A stretch of 64,000 bases of DNA from assembly GCA_029261715.1 (NCBI GenBank), contig JAJDAT010000005.1:62001-126000 (forward strand), written 5' to 3'. Shown piece by piece: positions 46,470 through 63,739 of this stretch. A program made the position numbers and the translations under genes. Under the pieces are notes generated by a model that was not told the DNA's origin, did not search any database, and saw nothing but the letters and a program-made list of their open reading frames with translations. Positions within the stretch are counted from its first letter, which is position 1. Each line of letters begins with the position of its first letter. Origin of the DNA: Nitrospinia bacterium (lineage in GTDB: Bacteria > Nitrospinota > Nitrospinia > Nitrospinales > JAJDAT01).

Positions 46470-47033
46470 ATGGAAAATAAATCTTTATTTGAAAACTTAA
46501 CGTTTGTAACTGGTAACTCTAATAAACTACGCGAAGCTAGTCAGATACTGGGATGTCCGCTAAATCAACGTGAAGTCGACGGATTAATTGAGATGCAAAC
46601 TTCCGACGTTTCAGAATTGGTGATTCATAAGTTGGACCAGGCTTATGAGGTTATTGGGAATCCTGTTTTAGTGGAAGATTCTGGCTTAATTTTTAGAGAT
46701 TGGAACGGGTTACCCGGAGCGCTGGTGAAGTGGTTTGAAAAATCTGTAGGCTGTGCTGGGATGATTCAGATGTTAGATAACTTTTCTAATAGAGAAGCGA
46801 TTGCCATTTGCTATGCTGCAGTAAGATTTGGGGAAACTATTAAAGTGGCTAAAGGAGAGGCGCACGGTACCATTGCTTTTGAAGAGCGTGGAACCAGTGG
46901 ATTCGGTTGGGATACAATATTTGTTCCAGAAGGAAGCGAGAAGACATTTGCTGAAATGGAACCTGAAGAAAAAAACGCCATTTCTCACCGCAAAAAGGCT
47001 TTTGAAGAATTAAAAAGAATGTTGAACGTTTAA
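46470..47033 (+). CDS. rdgB: Non-canonical purine NTP pyrophosphatase (RdgB/HAM1 family)
   Basis: Hydrolyses ITP, dITP and XTP to keep deaminated purines out of DNA and RNA. The 187-residue product has FVTGNSNKLREASQIL, the metal-binding VLVEDSGLIFRDWNGLPGAL, and GTSGFGWDTIFVPEGSEKTF followed by EKNAISHRKKAFEE. The ends match family length. The 3' end overlaps the convergent HEPN gene by 4 bases. Confidence 0.93.
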   Translation: MENKSLFENLTFVTGNSNKLREASQILGCPLNQREVDGLIEMQTSDVSELVIHKLDQAYEVIGNPVLVEDSGLIFRDWNGLPGALVKWFEKSVGCAGMIQMLDNFSNREAIAICYAAVRFGETIKVAKGEAHGTIAFEERGTSGFGWDTIFVPEGSEKTFAEMEPEEKNAISHRKKAFEELKRMLNV

Positions 47034-47413
47034 ACTCCTTTGGATACTGTGGTGTACAGTTTTTGAAAAAAAGAGTAATGATTAGAAAGACGTGGGTAAA
47101 CTGTTTCGGCTAAATCTGGCTTAAAGCCATCTTTAACTAATTGGTAATCGCTAATGACGGAATCGTATGTTTCGTCAGTCCATTTTTCTTCTTTAGCTAT
47201 TTGGAAACAGTCGTCGACAGATTGAATTGTTTTTCCTTTTTCTTCGGCTAATGCGCTTAAGCTTTTCTGTGCGGCGTCAAAAACTAAGCAAAACCTTTGA
47301 ATAGAGGCATCTCGGTAATAATCTGTTTTGTCGTTATTAAGGATTTGCTCAAAGTGTTGGATATTCCAATCCAAATGAGTTAATAAAATTTGGGCTTTAG
47401 ATGGAGAACTCAT
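47030..47413 (-). CDS. Orphan HEPN protein (HI0074-like nucleotidyltransferase-substrate binding)
   Basis: 127-residue helical protein with the family pattern RDASIQRFCLVFDAAQKSL and a last helix YPRLSNHYSFFQKLY. Family members pair with a minimal nucleotidyltransferase (MNT) as a toxin-antitoxin-like module, but no MNT gene lies nearby. The RNase-type R-x4-6-H motif of active HEPN proteins is not intact (SDYQLVKDGF in its place). It is divergent from the nucleoside transporter gene, with a MITE-like element in the gap, and overlaps rdgB by 4 bases at its 3' end. Confidence 0.75.
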   Translation of the reverse strand: MSSPSKAQILLTHLDWNIQHFEQILNNDKTDYYRDASIQRFCLVFDAAQKSLSALAEEKGKTIQSVDDCFQIAKEEKWTDETYDSVISDYQLVKDGFKPDLAETVYPRLSNHYSFFQKLYTTVSKGV

Positions 47414-49485: not shown

Positions 49486-49774
49486 AAGAACAAAGATTGA
49501 TTAGCGCTTAGAATATTTCCTCGATAAATAATTTAATCTTATGAATTGATAGCAATGTTCGAATTTTCTGGAGCTTGAATTGACAATTTTTAGCGACTAG
49601 AAAATCTATATCAGCAAGTGAGGCGCCAAAGCGGTGGCTTCGGTTGTGGTTTTCGCAAAGTATTTGAAATGAAAGAGGCTAGAGTTGAATTTTGTGGATA
49701 TTGGAAATGAAGTTATGATTTGATAAACGCTATCTTTTGGAGCTTTTTAAGACGGAGGTGTCTAAAAAAAAGAA

Positions 49775-56256: not shown

Positions 56257-56616
56257 AAAGTCTCTCCAGCAGGAAAGATTAAGGGCGCCCAAAAGAAAAT
56301 AAATCTTCTAAAGGGTTAATTCTAAATTATTTCAGTTTAACTGTAGTCATTGAATAATTTTTTTTATTCTATCTAATGCAACGGCTCGCGTCAATGTGAG
56401 CCCTATGAATTGTGGAAACAAGTTTTTTAAAGGAATATTGTACACATTAAAATAACATAGAAGGTTTAAATAAATATTTGATTTGCAGTAACTATAGAGG
56501 TAAAATTTAGAATCCCCTTATAAGATAAAACTGAGATGAGAAGGTGAGGTTATTTGATGGGCACGCTTATTAAGTCATTCTATATTTTTTGCATAGTTTT
56601 ATAGGAAATATCAAAA
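56257..56616. other. Intergenic region between moaE and the hybrid kinase
   Basis: About 360 bases separating divergent genes. A modest hairpin (56383-56389 with 56396-56402, no T-run) is the only structure found. No reading frame is supported. Promoters for moaE and the kinase should lie here. Confidence 0.5.
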
Positions 56617-58431
56617 ATGACTAATGAACAAAAATCTTCGACTGAAGGAGTCGAGTTAACTCAAGCAATTTTAGATGCCACAAAAGGTAATATTGCTGTT
56701 ATTGATAATGAAGGATTCATTATCAATATTAATTCTGGTTGGAAGAGGTTTTTTAAAGAGAATACGGATGATAAAGTTCCAGATATTGGAATTGGAATAA
56801 ATTATCTCAATGTTTTTAAAACTAGAGGAAAGCAAGAAAAAGAAGTTTATCAAGGGATTAAAAAAGTAATGGATGGCTTACGGGATAGTTTTTCTTTTGA
56901 ATATCCTTGTCATTCTCCAACGGAAGAACGATGGTTTTTGATGAATGCTACTCCACTAGGTAAAAAAACTATTCGTGGAGCTGTTATTTCTCATATTGAT
57001 ATTAGCGATCGAAAAAAAATGGAGTTAGAGTTAGAGAAAGCCAAAGACCAAGCTCAAAGTTCTAATTCAGCTAAAAGCGAGTTTTTAGCGAATATGAGTC
57101 ATGAGATTCGAACGCCAATGAATGCCATTTTAGGTTACGCTCAAATTTTACTACGCGACAAAACGTTATCCGAACGGCAAAAAAAATCGGTCAAAACAAT
57201 TTCTAATAGCGGAAATCATCTTTTAGGTTTAATCAACGAAATCCTAGACATTTCCAAAATTGAAGCTGGGAAAATGGAGTTGAACCAAACTAACTTTGAT
57301 CTTCAAGAGTTATTACAAGGCATTATAAAAATGTTTGTGGAGCCTTGCAAAGAAAAAGGACTATTGTTAAGACTTGATGTAGAGAGTAATAGTTTTCCTG
57401 TTTTTGGCGACGAAGGAAAAGTCAGGCAAATTTTGATTAATTTGGTAGGTAATGCCATAAAGTTCACAAAGGATGGTGAAGTATCAATCAGCATGGTTAA
57501 AGATGAAGACAATCTTTATAGGTTTACAGTACGGGATACAGGAATTGGAATGAGTTCAGATGATCAAAAATTAGTTTTCAAACCCTTTCACCAGATTTTC
57601 GATGAACAAGCAAAATTAGGAACTGGACTAGGGCTTGCCATAAGTAAGAAACAAACAGAATTGATGAAGGGAGAGTTGACCTTGGAATCAGAATTAGGAA
57701 AGGGGTCTGCTTTTTTTCTCACCATACTTCTATTGCCAGCTAAAGCAGATATGTTAAAACGAGCAAATAGAAACCTACAAGTGGTTCGTATAAAAGAGGA
57801 TTTTTCAATAAAAGCTTTAGTTGTTGACGATATAGAGGAAAACCGAGAAGTTCTAGCCACGATTTTAAAAGATATTGGATGCGAAGTATTGACCGCTAAT
57901 GATGGAGAGGAAGCTATAAGCCTATTTCGCCAAAATCAACCCCATATAGTATTTATGGATATTAGAATGCCAGTCATGAATGGTATGGATGTTATACGTC
58001 AATTAAAGGCTGAATATACAAATGAAGAATTAAATATAGTGGTGCTTTCTGCTTCTGTCTTAAAGCACGAGCAAGAGGAATATGGGGAATTGGGATGTGG
58101 AGAAGTTATCCTCAAACCTTTCCGGGTGGAAAATGTTCTAGCGGTTATACAGAAATTATTAGAAGTTGAATATGAATATGAGGATGTGAAGCTTGATGAG
58201 AGTGAAGATCTTGGTTTAATTGAAATCGATTATTCGAATATTGGTTTCTTAAAAGCGGAGATTGATGAAATCAAAAAATCCGCTCAATTATGCAATATAA
58301 CTCGGCTTGGCGAGGTATTGAAAGAACTAAAACCTCAAAATAAAGATGAAGCTAAGTTTTTGGAGAAATTGATCCAAAGTGTTGAAAAGTTCGATATGGA
58401 TAAAATTCTCGATGTATTGAAAAGAATATAA
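56617..58431 (+). CDS. Soluble hybrid histidine kinase (PAS-HisKA-HATPase-REC)
   Basis: 604-residue kinase with no membrane segment. Order: PAS domain (~20-135; NIAVIDNEGFIININSGW), HisKA with the phosphorylated His in EFLANMSHEIRTPMNAILGY, HATPase with NLVGNAIKFTKDGEVSIS, DTGIGMSSDD and GTGLGLAISKKQT, then a receiver with IVFMDIRMPVMNGMDV and the Lys in VILKPFRVEN, and a C-terminal helical part that may be an Hpt-like or output region (EIDYSNIGFLKAEIDEIKK). The input is presumably cytoplasmic. First gene of a plus-strand signalling group that ends in a sigma54 activator. Confidence 0.93.
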   Translation: MTNEQKSSTEGVELTQAILDATKGNIAVIDNEGFIININSGWKRFFKENTDDKVPDIGIGINYLNVFKTRGKQEKEVYQGIKKVMDGLRDSFSFEYPCHSPTEERWFLMNATPLGKKTIRGAVISHIDISDRKKMELELEKAKDQAQSSNSAKSEFLANMSHEIRTPMNAILGYAQILLRDKTLSERQKKSVKTISNSGNHLLGLINEILDISKIEAGKMELNQTNFDLQELLQGIIKMFVEPCKEKGLLLRLDVESNSFPVFGDEGKVRQILINLVGNAIKFTKDGEVSISMVKDEDNLYRFTVRDTGIGMSSDDQKLVFKPFHQIFDEQAKLGTGLGLAISKKQTELMKGELTLESELGKGSAFFLTILLLPAKADMLKRANRNLQVVRIKEDFSIKALVVDDIEENREVLATILKDIGCEVLTANDGEEAISLFRQNQPHIVFMDIRMPVMNGMDVIRQLKAEYTNEELNIVVLSASVLKHEQEEYGELGCGEVILKPFRVENVLAVIQKLLEVEYEYEDVKLDESEDLGLIEIDYSNIGFLKAEIDEIKKSAQLCNITRLGEVLKELKPQNKDEAKFLEKLIQSVEKFDMDKILDVLKRI

Positions 58432-58619
58432 AAATTTTTGAGTCGAAAGTTGAATCTTTTTTTACTTATTGTAAAAACCTTTTTGTTGATAATCTAAGTT
58501 TAAACCCTCGCAAAATTAAAATTTAATCTCCAGATTTTCCTCTGCATTTTTTTTAATTAACGTTATAGTTTAAGCATTCTAAGCATTATTAATGTTATTG
58601 AAAATAAACGTTAATTGAA

Positions 58620-60239
58620 ATGAATTTTATCTCGCCATTATTGTGCATTTTGGTTTTTTCCGGTTCATTACTGGGTATTTCAAGTTTTGCAGAGGGGAGC
58701 TTTGATGAAGACCTCAAAGAAGTTACTCTGCAACTTAAATGGAAGCATCAATTTCAATTTGCAGGGTATTATGCGGCTATTAAAAAAGGGTTTTATCGAG
58801 AAGAAGGGCTCAAAGTAGCCCTAAAAGAACCTGATCCAAATTCGGATACAGTGAGTCTAGTTGCTGAAGGGAAGGCGGAGTTTGGCGTTTCTGGTTCGGA
58901 TCTGATTTTACAAAGAAGTCGAGGAGTTCCTGTTGTGGCTCTTGCAGTGATTTACCAGCATTCTCCTTTGGCTTTGGTGGCAAAACAGGGAACTCATCAG
59001 CTTAAACAATTGGTTGGTAAGCGTGTAGCTTTGGAAGCGCAATCTGCGGAAATTATCGCTATGTTCAGACGTGAGGGGGTTGATGAGTCGGAGCTTAGAT
59101 TAACGGAACATATGTTTCACCCCAACGACTTACTGAGAGAGCAAATAGACGCTTTATCTATTTATACATCCGACGAAGTTTTTGATTTAAGGCAAGCGCA
59201 GTATGACTATTCTCTTTTTTCTCCAAGAGCATATGGCATCGATTTTTACGGAGATACGTTATTTACTTCAGATCGAATGATTCAAAGCCGACCAGATATA
59301 GTAGAAAGTTTTCGCAAAGCTTCGTTGAAAGGTTGGGATTATGCTTTAACGCATACTGAAGAAATGATCGATTTTATTTTGGAACAATATGGTTCTCGGC
59401 ATAGCCGGGAGCATTTACGTTTTGAAGCCGAAAGCGCACTAGTTTTTATAATGGCGGATATGTTGGAAATTGGTTACATGCACATGTGGCGTTGGCGTCA
59501 TATCTTAAATACATATAAATCCATAGGCTTAATTGAGCCTCATCGCATTGTGGATTTTAAATCTTTTATATACAAACCTCCGGTACCACAGGATTACAGG
59601 CGTTTTTACATTGTTTTCGGTATAGTGTGTGTCAGTTTGCTTGTTGTGACAAATATCGCTCTAGCATTCTTTCGTCTCAATCGACGACTCAAAGTTCAAA
59701 TCTCTGAAAGCGATGCGTTGAGAAGCGAGCTTGAACAAATGGCTTTTACCGATTTTCTAACGGGAGTAGCTAACCGAAGATATTTTGTACAATCTCTCAA
59801 TTCGGAATTAGAACGGATCAAACGTAACAAAACGGATATGGCATTAATAGAAATTGATTTAGACCATTTCAAGAATATCAATGATACTCATGGGCACTTG
59901 TTTGGAGATAACGCTCTTTGCCATTTTGTGAAAATGACTCAATCTATTCTGAGGCATAATGATATTTTTGGTCGTACCGGAGGTGAAGAATTTTGTGTGG
60001 TTTTGCCAGGAACAGATATGAATGGGGCAAAGGTTTTTGCAGACCGACTGATGATTAAATTAGATGAAACGCCTATTCCACACGAGACCAAAAAGGTTAT
60101 TCTATCGGCCAGTATGGGAATCAGCAATGTCAGACTGAATGATACAGTGGAAGATGTTATTGGACGAGCTGACGAAGCTCTTTATGAAGCGAAAGGTGCT
60201 GGGAGACACGCAATACGATTTAAAGTTTTAGAAGATTAA
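58620..60239 (+). CDS. NMT1-type periplasmic sensor fused to a diguanylate cyclase (GGDEF)
   Basis: 539-residue inner-membrane protein: signal peptide; an NMT1/ThiY-like substrate-binding domain (~32-300; TLQLKWKHQFQFAGYYAAIK, GKAEFGVSGSDLILQRSRG, SPLALVAKQGTHQL); a membrane helix near 325-345 (FYIVFGIVCVSLLVVTNIAL); then a GGDEF domain (TDFLTGVANRRYF, IEIDLDHFKNINDTHGH). The catalytic motif is GGEEF at about 454-458, and RHND (RxxD) five residues before it is the c-di-GMP inhibitory site. No EAL domain. Ligand probably a small nutrient of the pyrimidine/thiamine or taurine type, by family only. Confidence 0.93.
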   Translation: MNFISPLLCILVFSGSLLGISSFAEGSFDEDLKEVTLQLKWKHQFQFAGYYAAIKKGFYREEGLKVALKEPDPNSDTVSLVAEGKAEFGVSGSDLILQRSRGVPVVALAVIYQHSPLALVAKQGTHQLKQLVGKRVALEAQSAEIIAMFRREGVDESELRLTEHMFHPNDLLREQIDALSIYTSDEVFDLRQAQYDYSLFSPRAYGIDFYGDTLFTSDRMIQSRPDIVESFRKASLKGWDYALTHTEEMIDFILEQYGSRHSREHLRFEAESALVFIMADMLEIGYMHMWRWRHILNTYKSIGLIEPHRIVDFKSFIYKPPVPQDYRRFYIVFGIVCVSLLVVTNIALAFFRLNRRLKVQISESDALRSELEQMAFTDFLTGVANRRYFVQSLNSELERIKRNKTDMALIEIDLDHFKNINDTHGHLFGDNALCHFVKMTQSILRHNDIFGRTGGEEFCVVLPGTDMNGAKVFADRLMIKLDETPIPHETKKVILSASMGISNVRLNDTVEDVIGRADEALYEAKGAGRHAIRFKVLED

Positions 60240-60569
60240 GCGAACTAAAACTAGTGTTTCATTATTAATTTCGATACTTTTGAAGAAAAAATCGAGAAGT
60301 TACCGTTGAATTAGTTTCATCGTTTCAAAATCCCCTGAGTTCTTTTTTTACTTTTATGCTAAATCCTATTAGCAATATCTTTTTAGTGATTCCAATTAAA
60401 CTGTTATTTGGTTTTTATAATTTCATTAACGGTAAATATATGATAGTTTGGTGTTGGATTGATAGAAGTATTATATTCGAATAGTATAAAATAAATTCGA
60501 CTTTTGAAGGTATTATTAAAAAGTAGTTTTTATCAATAATTAATAGATTTTTTCCCCCAGATATAGATC
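60240..60569. other. Intergenic region before the sigma54 activator
   Basis: About 330 AT-rich bases with no supported gene, hairpin or -24/-12 element. It should contain the promoter of the sigma54 activator gene. Confidence 0.5.
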
Positions 60570-62099
60570 GTGAATTTTGATCCAAAAGTTCTTGAATCCA
60601 AAGTATTAATCATCGACGATGAGCCAGCAAATGTAAGGTTGGTAGAGCAAATGCTAAAAATGCATGGATTTACCAGTTTAGAAAGTACGACGGATCCTTG
60701 TATAGGGGTCGAAATGTATCTAAATTCAAAACCTGACCTTGTTTTGCTTGATTTATTGATGCCTAAAATGAATGGTTTTGAAGTTTTGAAAGAGATAAAA
60801 AAAATAGAAAAAAAATCTTATCCGCCAGTATTAATTTTAACGGCTCTTGTTGATCAGGATACTCATCTAAAGGCCTTAGAAGCTGGAGCGAGAGATTTCC
60901 TCACGAAACCCCTCAGACAAAATGAAGTCTTATGTCGTATTCGCAATATTTTGGAGGTCCGTCTTCTTCATAAACATATAAAAAATCATAATTTAGATTT
61001 AGAAGAAAAAGTTGCAGAACGGACGAAAGAATTAGTGGGCGCAAATATAGAACTTGAAAAATTACGCAATCAATTAGAAATAGAAAACGCTTATTTGCGC
61101 GAAGAAGTTACTACAGAGTTTAATGTGACGGGAATTATTGGAAATAGTTCTGCAATGCAGAATGTATTCAATAAAATTAAGCAAGTGGCTGGATCTGATT
61201 CGACAGTGTTAATTCAAGGAGAAACTGGAACAGGTAAAGAGCTTATTGCTCGGGCAATTCACGAACAAAGTCAAAGGAAGAAGCGCACTTTAGTTAAGGT
61301 AAACTGTGGAGGAATTCCAAGAGAGTTATTTGAAAGCGAGTTTTTTGGCCACTTAAAGGGATCTTTTACGGGAGCTATTAAAGATAGAACGGGAAGGTTT
61401 CAATTAGCCGATCAAGGAACCTTATTTCTTGATGAAGTCGGAGAGATTCCTATAGAACTTCAACCTAAATTACTTCGTGTTCTTCAAGAAGGAGAGTTTG
61501 AGCCTATTGGAGATGATCAGCCGAGGAGTGTCGATGTTAGAATTATCGCGGCGACCAATCGCGATCTGGAAAACGAAATTGAAAACGGAAGTTTTAGGGA
61601 AGATTTATATTACCGGCTTGATGTTTTTCCAATTCATGTTCCTCCGCTAAGAGAGCGTAAAGAGGATATAAAAATGATAGCTAACCATTATATAGAGAGT
61701 CATAGCCGTAGGCTTAATTTGAAAAGAGTTAAGTTGACTGAGGAAAATATCAGGGATTTGGAATCTTACGATTGGCCGGGAAACATTAGAGAATTGCAGA
61801 ATGTTATCGAACGAGCTTTAATTACCGCCCAGGACGGGAACATAAGTTTCGATTTGAGAGCAAGGCCGACTTTTATACGGAGCTCAATTCAGAAAAATTC
61901 GTTAAAAGAACCTGTTGCTGTCGATGGAGTTATGACCGTAGATGAAGAAAGAGACCGTAGCCGCAACAATATTATTGCCGCTCTCAAAAAGTCTAGATGG
62001 AAAGTTTATGGCTCCGATGGCGCGGCTAATATATTGGGACTGCATCCGCAAACGCTAACAAACAAAATGAAGAAATTAGGAATCAAAAAAAACGAATAG
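60570..62099 (+). CDS. NtrC-type sigma54-dependent response regulator
   Basis: 509-residue bacterial enhancer-binding protein. Receiver at 10-125 with the acidic pair in VLIIDDEPANVR, phosphoacceptor D61 (VLLDLLMPKMNG) and a Lys in FLTKPLRQNE; a coiled-coil linker (LEEKVAERTKEL ... IENAYLREEV); an AAA+ domain with Walker A GETGTGKELIARAIHEQ, the sigma54-contact loop GSFTGA (one change from GAFTGA), Walker B TLFLDEVGEIP, VRIIAATNRDLEN; a Fis-type HTH (NILGLHPQTLTNKMKKLG). GTG start with a weak SD. The two downstream small genes have -24/-12 promoters, so it is their likely activator. Confidence 0.95.
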   Translation: MNFDPKVLESKVLIIDDEPANVRLVEQMLKMHGFTSLESTTDPCIGVEMYLNSKPDLVLLDLLMPKMNGFEVLKEIKKIEKKSYPPVLILTALVDQDTHLKALEAGARDFLTKPLRQNEVLCRIRNILEVRLLHKHIKNHNLDLEEKVAERTKELVGANIELEKLRNQLEIENAYLREEVTTEFNVTGIIGNSSAMQNVFNKIKQVAGSDSTVLIQGETGTGKELIARAIHEQSQRKKRTLVKVNCGGIPRELFESEFFGHLKGSFTGAIKDRTGRFQLADQGTLFLDEVGEIPIELQPKLLRVLQEGEFEPIGDDQPRSVDVRIIAATNRDLENEIENGSFREDLYYRLDVFPIHVPPLRERKEDIKMIANHYIESHSRRLNLKRVKLTEENIRDLESYDWPGNIRELQNVIERALITAQDGNISFDLRARPTFIRSSIQKNSLKEPVAVDGVMTVDEERDRSRNNIIAALKKSRWKVYGSDGAANILGLHPQTLTNKMKKLGIKKNE

Positions 62100-62197
62100 T
62101 TATTACCCGCCTAAAAGTTTACACCAACCCACCTATTTTTTTCTAAAGCTCTTAATTGATTCCGCAAAAGACAAGCCGTTAATTGTCTCATCGATAA

Positions 62198-62425
62198 TTA
62201 ATGAGTTAGGCATTCTTTTTTAAATTCGGTCAAGTTATCGATGAGATCTTGAGTAGAACTTTGCATTTCTTTTAATATTTCTTTGAGCGTGACACTGATG
62301 TCTTGAGTGGCCTTGGCGCTTGAGTCAAGTTGAGAAATCGAAGAACAAAACTTTTGAGAAGATTGGGTTAAAGCTTTAGAGTTGAGTCCTAACTTTGTGT
62401 CTTGGTTTTCTTGGTTCGTATTCAT
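62198..62425 (-). CDS. Small helical protein, family A member 1 (75 aa)
   Basis: Unrecognised 75-residue protein, Ser/Thr/Gln-rich and probably one or two amphipathic helices (NSKALTQSSQKFCSSISQLD; TLKEILKEMQSSTQDLIDNL), with no signal peptide or membrane segment. About half of its residues from position 11 on match the protein at 62855 in order: KL..S.AL..S..KF.SSIS.L.SSA, then LKE.Q.ST.DLIDN....KE. GGAG lies 8 bases before the ATG. A -24/-12 sigma54 promoter is at 62473-62490, about 38 bases from the predicted transcription start to the ATG. Convergent with the sigma54 activator gene. Confidence 0.75.
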   Translation of the reverse strand: MNTNQENQDTKLGLNSKALTQSSQKFCSSISQLDSSAKATQDISVTLKEILKEMQSSTQDLIDNLTEFKKECLTH

Positions 62426-62854
62426 TTTTGTTTCTCCGTTTCGGTTGTTGATTTGTTTTATACCGAGAGATACAGCAAGCTAGGCGCCAATTTGTTTTTT
62501 CTAAATCTGATAAATTGGGAAATCTATTAAGTCCTTTAAAATTAATATTTTATTTTTTTAATAAAAGTGTAAGTGGAATTGGTTCGTCTCTTCGTGATGA
62601 GATAAACCCAAATAAATTGTGGGTATTAACGGGGAAACCAACAGTGTTGTGTGCGGATAATGTGATGAGAATAGAAGAAATAATTTGTATTCGTGGGCAA
62701 GTAATCTAATCGGTAGAGAACTCGATTTCTAATGTGTGTACTAAAGCGGCGATCTCTAAAACAGAAGTATACGAAAGGAAGGACAGCGATAGCTGAACTC
62801 AATCACAAATCCATCTCTAGTAATTAAGATAGATAAAGGACTGATTGATAAGTA
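62426..62854. other. Intergenic region with one sigma54 promoter
   Basis: About 430 bases between the two small paralogous genes. Near the left end is the -24/-12 element of the first small gene; a plus-strand 64-codon frame (62515-62709) has no SD and is not called. Nothing else stands out. Confidence 0.5.
62473..62490 (-). promoter_or_regulatory. Sigma54 (-24/-12) promoter of the small gene at 62198
   Basis: Reading the minus strand, TTGGCGCCTAGCTTGCTG matches the sigma54 pattern: the GG and GC dinucleotides are 10 bases apart and TTGCT is exact at -12. One change (GCGC for GCAC) at the -24 half. The predicted transcription start is about 12 bases downstream, near 62463. The same core CCTAGCTTGCT occurs in the promoter at 63188. 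Confidence 0.85.
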
Positions 62855-63121
62855 TTAAGCTTTTGGAATACATTCTTTCAAACTTTTAATATTATCAATA
62901 AGGTCTTCGGTAGATTCTTGGATTTCTTTTAAAACATCGTCGATTGATATTGAAAAATTTGTATTAGCTTGAGCGCTTGAGCTTAGTTTAGAAATTGATG
63001 AAGTGAATTTAAGAGTGGATTTGCTCAATGCATTAGAATGAGCGCTTAATTTAGTTTCAGGAGGCGTGCCATGGATCCATGTAACATTATCTATAGTGCG
63101 AACTTTATGATTATGTCTCAT
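62855..63121 (-). CDS. Small helical protein, family A member 2 (88 aa)
   Basis: Paralogue of the 75-residue protein at 62198. The 88-residue product has a basic, possibly unstructured N-terminus (MRHNHKVRTIDNVTWIHG) and then the shared region ETKLSAHSNALSKSTLKF, SSISKLSSSAQANTNF, and SIDDVLKEIQESTEDLIDN. The pattern suits an amphipathic helical bundle or coiled coil. GAGG five bases before the ATG sets the start. A -24/-12 sigma54 promoter is at 63188-63205. No homologue is recognised. Confidence 0.75.
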   Translation of the reverse strand: MRHNHKVRTIDNVTWIHGTPPETKLSAHSNALSKSTLKFTSSISKLSSSAQANTNFSISIDDVLKEIQESTEDLIDNIKSLKECIPKA

Positions 63122-63187
63122 TTGTACCTCGCTTTTAAAATAAATTAACTATATTAAAAATAATACAACTATAGCTGTTTTACTATA

Positions 63188-63205
63188 AAGCAAGCTAGGT
63201 ACCGT
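63188..63205 (-). promoter_or_regulatory. Sigma54 (-24/-12) promoter of the small gene at 62855
   Basis: On the minus strand, AACGGTACCTAGCTTGCTTT shows GG and GC 10 bases apart, the sigma54 spacing, with TTGCTT at -12. The -24 half (CGGTAC) is less close to consensus than at 62473, but the core CCTAGCTTGCT is identical. The predicted start is near 63178, leaving a 57-base leader before the ATG at 63121. Confidence 0.8.
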
Positions 63206-63307
63206 TTTTAACTATGAGATATGATCAAAAATATAATGTGTGAAACCCCATATAAAACAAATAAGTATTCTTTAAAAATATTTTAGAAACTGACGAGTTA
63301 ATTGTTC

Positions 63308-63379
63308 GTGGTTTATAAAAATTTGCTAAAAACCACAAATTTGTTGGTTAAACCTCGAAAAACCACAAAGTTGTGGTTT
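63308..63379. repeat. Alternating AACCACAAA repeats
   Basis: The 9-mer AACCACAAA or its complement occurs five times in 72 bases: 63308-63314 (complement, 7 bases), 63331-63339 (direct), 63340-63349 (complement with one extra T), 63361-63369 (direct), 63371-63379 (complement). The last two form the hairpin at 63358-63381. Confidence 0.6.
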
Positions 63380-63381
63380 TT
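63358..63381 (-). terminator. Probable intrinsic terminator after moaD
   Basis: A perfect 11-base-pair hairpin (63358-63368 with 63371-63381) with A-rich and T-rich ends, so it would work in both directions, although it has few G-C pairs. It is about 107 bases after the moaD stop and upstream of the small gene at 62855. Confidence 0.55.
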
Positions 63382-63487
63382 GAAATTATTAATTGATGGT
63401 CAATTATCAGAAAGCGATTTACTGGGTAATGCCAAGGAGAGAACTAAATACTTGAGTTCAAGATAAACTCAATATTAAGTAGGTAGA

Positions 63488-63739
63488 TTATAATCCACCA
63501 GAAAATGGAGGTAAAAAGGCTACTTCATCTCCATCTTTAATTATGGTGTTCATGGTAGCCATTTCTTGATTAATGGCTACCATGACATTTTTTTGACGAA
63601 TCATTTCTACTATTTGAGATTGGGAGCTTTCTAATTGACGACAGAGATCATCTAACTTCATTCCGTCAGAAGCTGTTAATTCTTCGGATTCTTTTCCGGC
63701 TACTTCTTTTAAATTGGCGAAATATTTAATACTAATCAT
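63488..63739 (-). CDS. moaD: Molybdopterin synthase sulfur carrier MoaD (C-terminus Gly-Gly-Leu)
   Basis: Small ubiquitin-like subunit of molybdopterin synthase that carries the thiocarboxylate sulfur. The 83-residue product has [32 protein letters not shown] and the family end [14 protein letters not shown]. An extra Leu follows the Gly-Gly that must be C-terminal for activation by MoeB; the stop codon comes after it. That is unusual and may mean proteolytic trimming, loss of function or a sequence error. The start overlaps the moaC stop by 4 bases (ATGA). A 13-base perfect hairpin lies inside the gene. Confidence 0.93.
63550..63585 (-). repeat. Hairpin inside moaD
   Basis: Perfect 13-base inverted repeat (63550-63562 and 63573-63585, loop of 10) within the moaD coding sequence, over the region encoding [13 protein letters not shown]. 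As mRNA it would form a strong stem. It may be an accident of codons or a regulatory stem. Confidence 0.7.

Follow-up and report, generated by a model that had tools for sequence, protein, structure and literature searches.

Two small orphan paralogues predicted to form helical hairpins in a putative lineage-specific sigma54 two-component module of a Nitrospinia bacterium

The window analysed here, a stretch of 64,000 nucleotides from the genome of a Nitrospinia bacterium, carries between moaD and moaE a block which comprises the genes for a hybrid histidine kinase, an NMT1-GGDEF protein, an NtrC-type activator and two small proteins (Table 1). The block, whose position the first-pass annotation of this DNA did not mention, breaks up a moaC-moaD-moaE-addB-addA order that the relatives examined retain: moaC, moaD, moaE and addB run uninterrupted in 25 of 25 untruncated moaE loci (24 relatives), and ten longer stretches from relatives, nine of which reach through addA, confirm this uninterrupted order. 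Because the block is absent from the moaD-moaE junction of every relative examined, all of them from outside the source organism's own family, the comparison favours its gain in this lineage. No transposase, integrase or repeats were recognised at the block ends, and the G+C content of the block (0.32-0.39 per kb) lies only slightly below that of the addAB flank. Inside moaD, a perfect 14-bp stem with a run of T after it on the + strand (63550-63585) was called terminator-like.

Table 1. Position and strand of the features discussed in the text (numbering of the window).
Feature	Position	Strand	Remarks
YfiR/HmsC-like (DUF4154) protein behind P3	48937..49485	-	tentative member
P3, third genome copy of promoter element	49613..49628	-	tentative member
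7.2 kb block between moaE and moaD	56293..63487	.	moaE and moaD adjacent in relatives
Hybrid histidine kinase	56617..58431	+	HisKA, HATPase_c, receiver; PAS-like start
NMT1/THI5-like domain fused to GGDEF	58620..60239	+	
NtrC-type activator	60570..62099	+	receiver, AAA+ with GSFTGA, Fis-type HTH
Small protein 1	62198..62425	-	75 aa; predicted helical hairpin
P1, sigma54-type promoter TGGCGCCTAGCTTGCT	62474..62489	-	GG-N10-GC; before small gene 1
Putative degenerate enhancer dyad of P1	62605..62624	.	
Second, weaker putative dyad of P1	62636..62654	.	about 31 bp from first
Small protein 2	62855..63121	-	88 aa; paralogue of protein 1; longer disordered N-terminus
P2, sigma54-type promoter CGGTACCTAGCTTGCT	63189..63204	-	GG-N10-GC; before small gene 2
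Second putative enhancer dyad of P2	63331..63349	.	30 bp from first
Putative enhancer dyad of P2, AACCACAAAGTTGTGGTT (AACCACAA-N2-TTGTGGTT)	63361..63378	.	sole exact copy in genome

The activator shows the three-domain order of its class, with a receiver (Response_reg PF00072, 1.3e-26), an AAA+ domain (Sigma54_activat PF00158, 9.8e-74) and a C-terminal Fis-type HTH (HTH_8 PF02954, 1.7e-5, 24.9 bits vs a cut-off of 22). The GSFTGA sequence, a GAFTGA-type loop, is present in the translation, in agreement with the first-pass description of an activator with a full AAA+ domain. The closest full-length activator found likewise follows a hybrid kinase gene. Within the block, the NMT1-GGDEF protein is a putative ligand-sensing diguanylate cyclase.

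The two small ORFs, which the first-pass annotation had delimited as in Table 1 and taken to be paralogues, align with 33 of 66 columns identical (50%, E=3e-15). Their genes differ at 25, 11 and 41 of 65 first, second and third codon positions respectively, in a comparison that is between the two paralogues only, the genes being absent from the 76 other genomes of the phylum. The low dN of the pair (0.39, NG86) against a saturated dS (3.2) shows that both ORFs are maintained as proteins and are therefore not chance ORFs; both are under protein-level constraint. A perfect 12-nt inverted repeat (62186-62197 / 62235-62246) spans the 3' end of small gene 1 and lies between this gene and the convergent activator gene; its RNA fold (z -1.6) is not exceptional.

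The helical character proposed for the small proteins at first reading is supported by a hydrophobic period of 102-103 degrees in the conserved parts of both, which is that of a heptad coiled coil, and by AlphaFold models, built on a two-row alignment, in which each protein forms a helical hairpin with its turn at about the same alignment position. Confidence in the models is fair for small protein 1 (mean pLDDT 82) and moderate for small protein 2 (mean pLDDT 72), the N-terminal 18 residues of which fall below 50. With these hairpins Foldseek returned no match at E<=0.001 and only generic helical hairpins; the best geometry was that of long helical hairpins such as F-BAR proteins and is not significant. 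The statement that the proteins belong to no known family holds across all the collections searched, there being no match at cut-off in Pfam or NCBIfam and at most weak coiled-coil matches in PHROGs, PADLOC and the PDB. The general likeness to chemoreceptor-like coiled coils or phasin-like proteins noted in the first-pass annotation found no counterpart in Pfam, where neither MCPsignal, the chemoreceptor signalling domain, nor the phasin family, nor PspA_IM30, matched the small proteins at E<=1; a search of Rfam was likewise negative. Assignment to WXG100 was rejected at 15.5 bits against a gathering score of 27.3, and the sequence has no WxG. Reading the two sequences revealed no targeting or membrane segment and no signal-peptide-like start, and the proteins appear to be cytoplasmic.

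Conservation of the small genes in relatives, which had been put forward as a test of the first reading, was not found: no convincing homologue was detected among the phylum's 76 other genomes, among 396 genomes from a different phylum (in a search run without a positive control), or in the viral contigs and plasmids searched, and the stretches around the nearest full-length activators (L007, L008) contain no small paralogue. Two weak matches were rejected, one in the phylum (E=0.001) that sits inside an unrelated 228-aa ORF, and one in the organism's own genome (C1:262521) that runs antisense within a long open frame. The small proteins are thus an orphan family of two known members.

Each small gene is preceded by a sigma54-type element, as the first-pass annotation had stated. 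P1 and P2 both present GG-N10-GC with TTGC at -12, they share a common core and are identical at 13 of 16 positions, and rpoN is found at one locus in the genome. In pattern searches, on which all genome-wide statements here rest, the 11-base core CCTAGCTTGCT common to the two has exactly two copies in the 5.33 Mb genome, both of them at these sites, while a reversed-pattern control gave one match. At this genome size base composition predicts an estimated one or two copies by chance, and therefore the rarity of CCTAGCTTGCT alone proves little; what counts is its place before both paralogues. Non-coding conservation between the two loci is confined to the promoter and to a region of upstream dyads, neither of which was equalled by any of 2000 shuffles, in contrast to the linker between dyads and promoter (313 of 2000 shuffles as good) and the leader (1111 of 2000), in a comparison whose segment borders were picked after inspecting the data and whose loci are duplicates, so that part of the similarity is inherited. 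The retention of promoter and dyads while synonymous sites are saturated is, as read from the sequence, a footprint of function.

The tandem dyads, of which the first-pass annotation made no mention, have their centres, counted upstream from the -24 element, at about 126 and 156 bp for P1 and at about 136 and 166 bp for P2. At P1, the weaker of the two promoters, the paired arrangement was equalled by none of 1000 shuffles and none of 1142 genomic windows. These distances are close to the usual enhancer range of 80-150 bp (PMC4987338), and tandem repeats have a parallel in GcsR, which has three tandem 18 bp repeats (PMC9159945). The arrangement fits that of putative enhancers, and their binder, judged from proximity, is presumably the adjacent response-regulator activator. 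Sites of the AACCACAAAGTTGTGGTT type with up to three mismatches occur elsewhere in the genome at chance level (30 per strand vs 31 in the control), the near-dyad loci checked elsewhere in the genome have no strong sigma54 element close by, and no convincing dyads were found upstream of the kinase, cyclase and activator genes. We know of no activator to which the dyad AACCACAA-N2-TTGTGGTT has been assigned. The conservation of promoters and dyads, together with the rarity of the paired dyads of P1, strengthens the first-pass view that the two genes form a regulated pair made on a signal.

A third copy of the promoter element, P3, which the first-pass annotation had missed, precedes a gene whose product matches DUF4154 (9e-28, 97.5 bits vs a cut-off of 24.9) and which lies 13 kb from the small genes and about 7 kb outside the block. 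The pattern GGYRCCTNNCTTGCT matches the genome at exactly three places, P1, P2 and, at 49613-49627, P3, a count that is partly circular as the pattern was drawn up with P3 already in view. Since only single half-sites and no dyad pair lie upstream of P3, we assign it to the module no more than tentatively. In the nine relatives with sequence reaching beyond addA, nothing in the stretch analysed matches the YfiR-like protein. In Pseudomonas, FleQ, which belongs to the same class of activators, reduces yfiR expression and binds upstream of the gene (PMC9159945), a precedent that is suggestive only. In the same part of the window a small protein (47030-47413, - strand) gives a sub-threshold match to nucleotidyltransferase substrate-binding proteins.

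Intact coding genes, conserved promoters and dyads, and their common location in one block are the sequence-level support for a control circuit, and we read the locus as a whole, with modest confidence, as a lineage-specific two-component sigma54 module, a grading that refers to the circuit and is discounted for the function of the hairpins. In this module the hybrid kinase would phosphorylate the receiver of the NtrC-type activator, a phosphotransfer that we infer, while the NMT1-GGDEF protein would perhaps tune the kinase. Bound to the tandem dyads (126-166 bp upstream of -24), the activator would drive sigma54 RNA polymerase at P1 and P2, yielding the two hairpin paralogues, and it is likely that this adjacent activator controls both small genes from these promoters; the yfiR-like gene behind P3 would be a possible third target. 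The hairpins would most likely associate as helical bundles, homo- or hetero-oligomeric, which may in turn act on the signalling proteins of the module. A single genome is enough to read a complete putative sigma54 circuit of local scope, from sensor and activator to enhancers, promoters and targets, the last of which fall in no protein family so far described. Setting the two paralogues side by side also gives the activator a concrete candidate enhancer motif. The clean position between moaD and moaE makes the block a natural unit for moving or deleting. The control circuit, which has good support, is of an ordinary kind, and it is the small proteins that are new.

As for what the hairpins do, our tentative preference is that they oligomerise and serve the module itself as adaptor or feedback regulator, because their genes lie inside a signalling block, because they are small coiled-coil hairpins present as a duplicated pair, and because PspA and PspF provide a precedent. 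The hairpin fold is generic, and the adaptor role is drawn from neighbourhood and analogy. About as likely, and itself a possibility to be taken seriously, is that the same circuit produces the hairpins as a terminal effector or structural product, assembling for example on a membrane, a granule or a large complex, that has no action on the module. Two strong-looking promoters for near-duplicate small proteins would suit a product that the cell needs in large amounts, structural assemblies often contain coiled-coil hairpins with a heptad period, and the non-significant F-BAR-like geometry points the same way, but the small proteins match no known structural family, have no targeting or membrane segment that we could see, and show no link to a particular structure. 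A more specific form of the adaptor reading is rather doubtful: the hairpins would be a new class of sigma54-induced adaptor, linking the kinase-activator pair to c-di-GMP control with a PspA-like feedback logic in an unrelated family, c-di-GMP being brought in because of the NMT1-GGDEF and YfiR-like proteins.

The assignment of the activator can also be questioned, for the small genes might be sigma54-controlled by a different enhancer-binding protein, with the adjacent activator serving other targets. At E<=1e-60 this activator has 14 matches in the genome, and adjacency is the sole link between activator and dyads; on the other side, activator and small genes share a 7.2 kb block that is absent from this position in relatives, and the rest of the genome yielded no further dyad, exact or convincing, beside a strong promoter, so that we regard control by another protein as unlikely. 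That the P2 dyads are instead a terminator of the moa operon, the promoter similarity being a remnant of duplication, is very improbable, for while the P2 dyad region lies downstream of moaD and has an RNA fold much stronger than that of shuffled sequences (z -4.4), P1, which follows no such operon end, keeps a dyad pair equally spaced and at the same distance, dyads and promoter have stayed alike where linker and leader are no longer recognisably similar, and a terminator scan did not call the P2 dyads.

Several known systems resemble parts of the proposed module. In domain order, in the tandem repeats upstream of -24/-12 promoters and in a possibly purely local regulon it resembles systems of the NtrC/GcsR type (PMC9159945), although the targets here are orphan proteins and not metabolic genes. 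The ZraSR-ZraP system likewise combines a kinase and an NtrC-type response regulator with an adjoining gene for a small protein on a sigma54 promoter (PMC4987338), but ZraP is a periplasmic zinc-binding chaperone, whereas the small proteins here have neither a signal-peptide-like start nor a family match. In DbfQRS a small protein is also encoded beside a two-component pair, which DbfQ modulates (PMC12714742); DbfQ, however, is periplasmic and requires cleavage of its signal peptide, in contrast to the apparently cytoplasmic proteins described here. A YfiR/HmsC-like protein behind a matching promoter element, together with a GGDEF protein in the block, recalls YfiBNR, where YfiR acts in the periplasm as repressor of a diguanylate cyclase, with the differences that the GGDEF protein here has an NMT1-type sensor and that the yfiR-like gene stands outside the block without dyads. 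For the candidate role of the hairpins the closest precedent is PspA-PspF, in which a helical coiled-coil product of the sigma54 regulon acts as an inhibitor of the AAA+ activator to which it binds (PMC3128695), an example of feedback by such a product. The activator here differs in having a receiver domain and a neighbouring kinase, and PspA, with 222 aa and four helical domains, differs from proteins of 75-88 aa that have no Pfam PspA match. If the hairpins do feed back on their activator, they would represent a second, unrelated solution to the job that PspA does for PspF.
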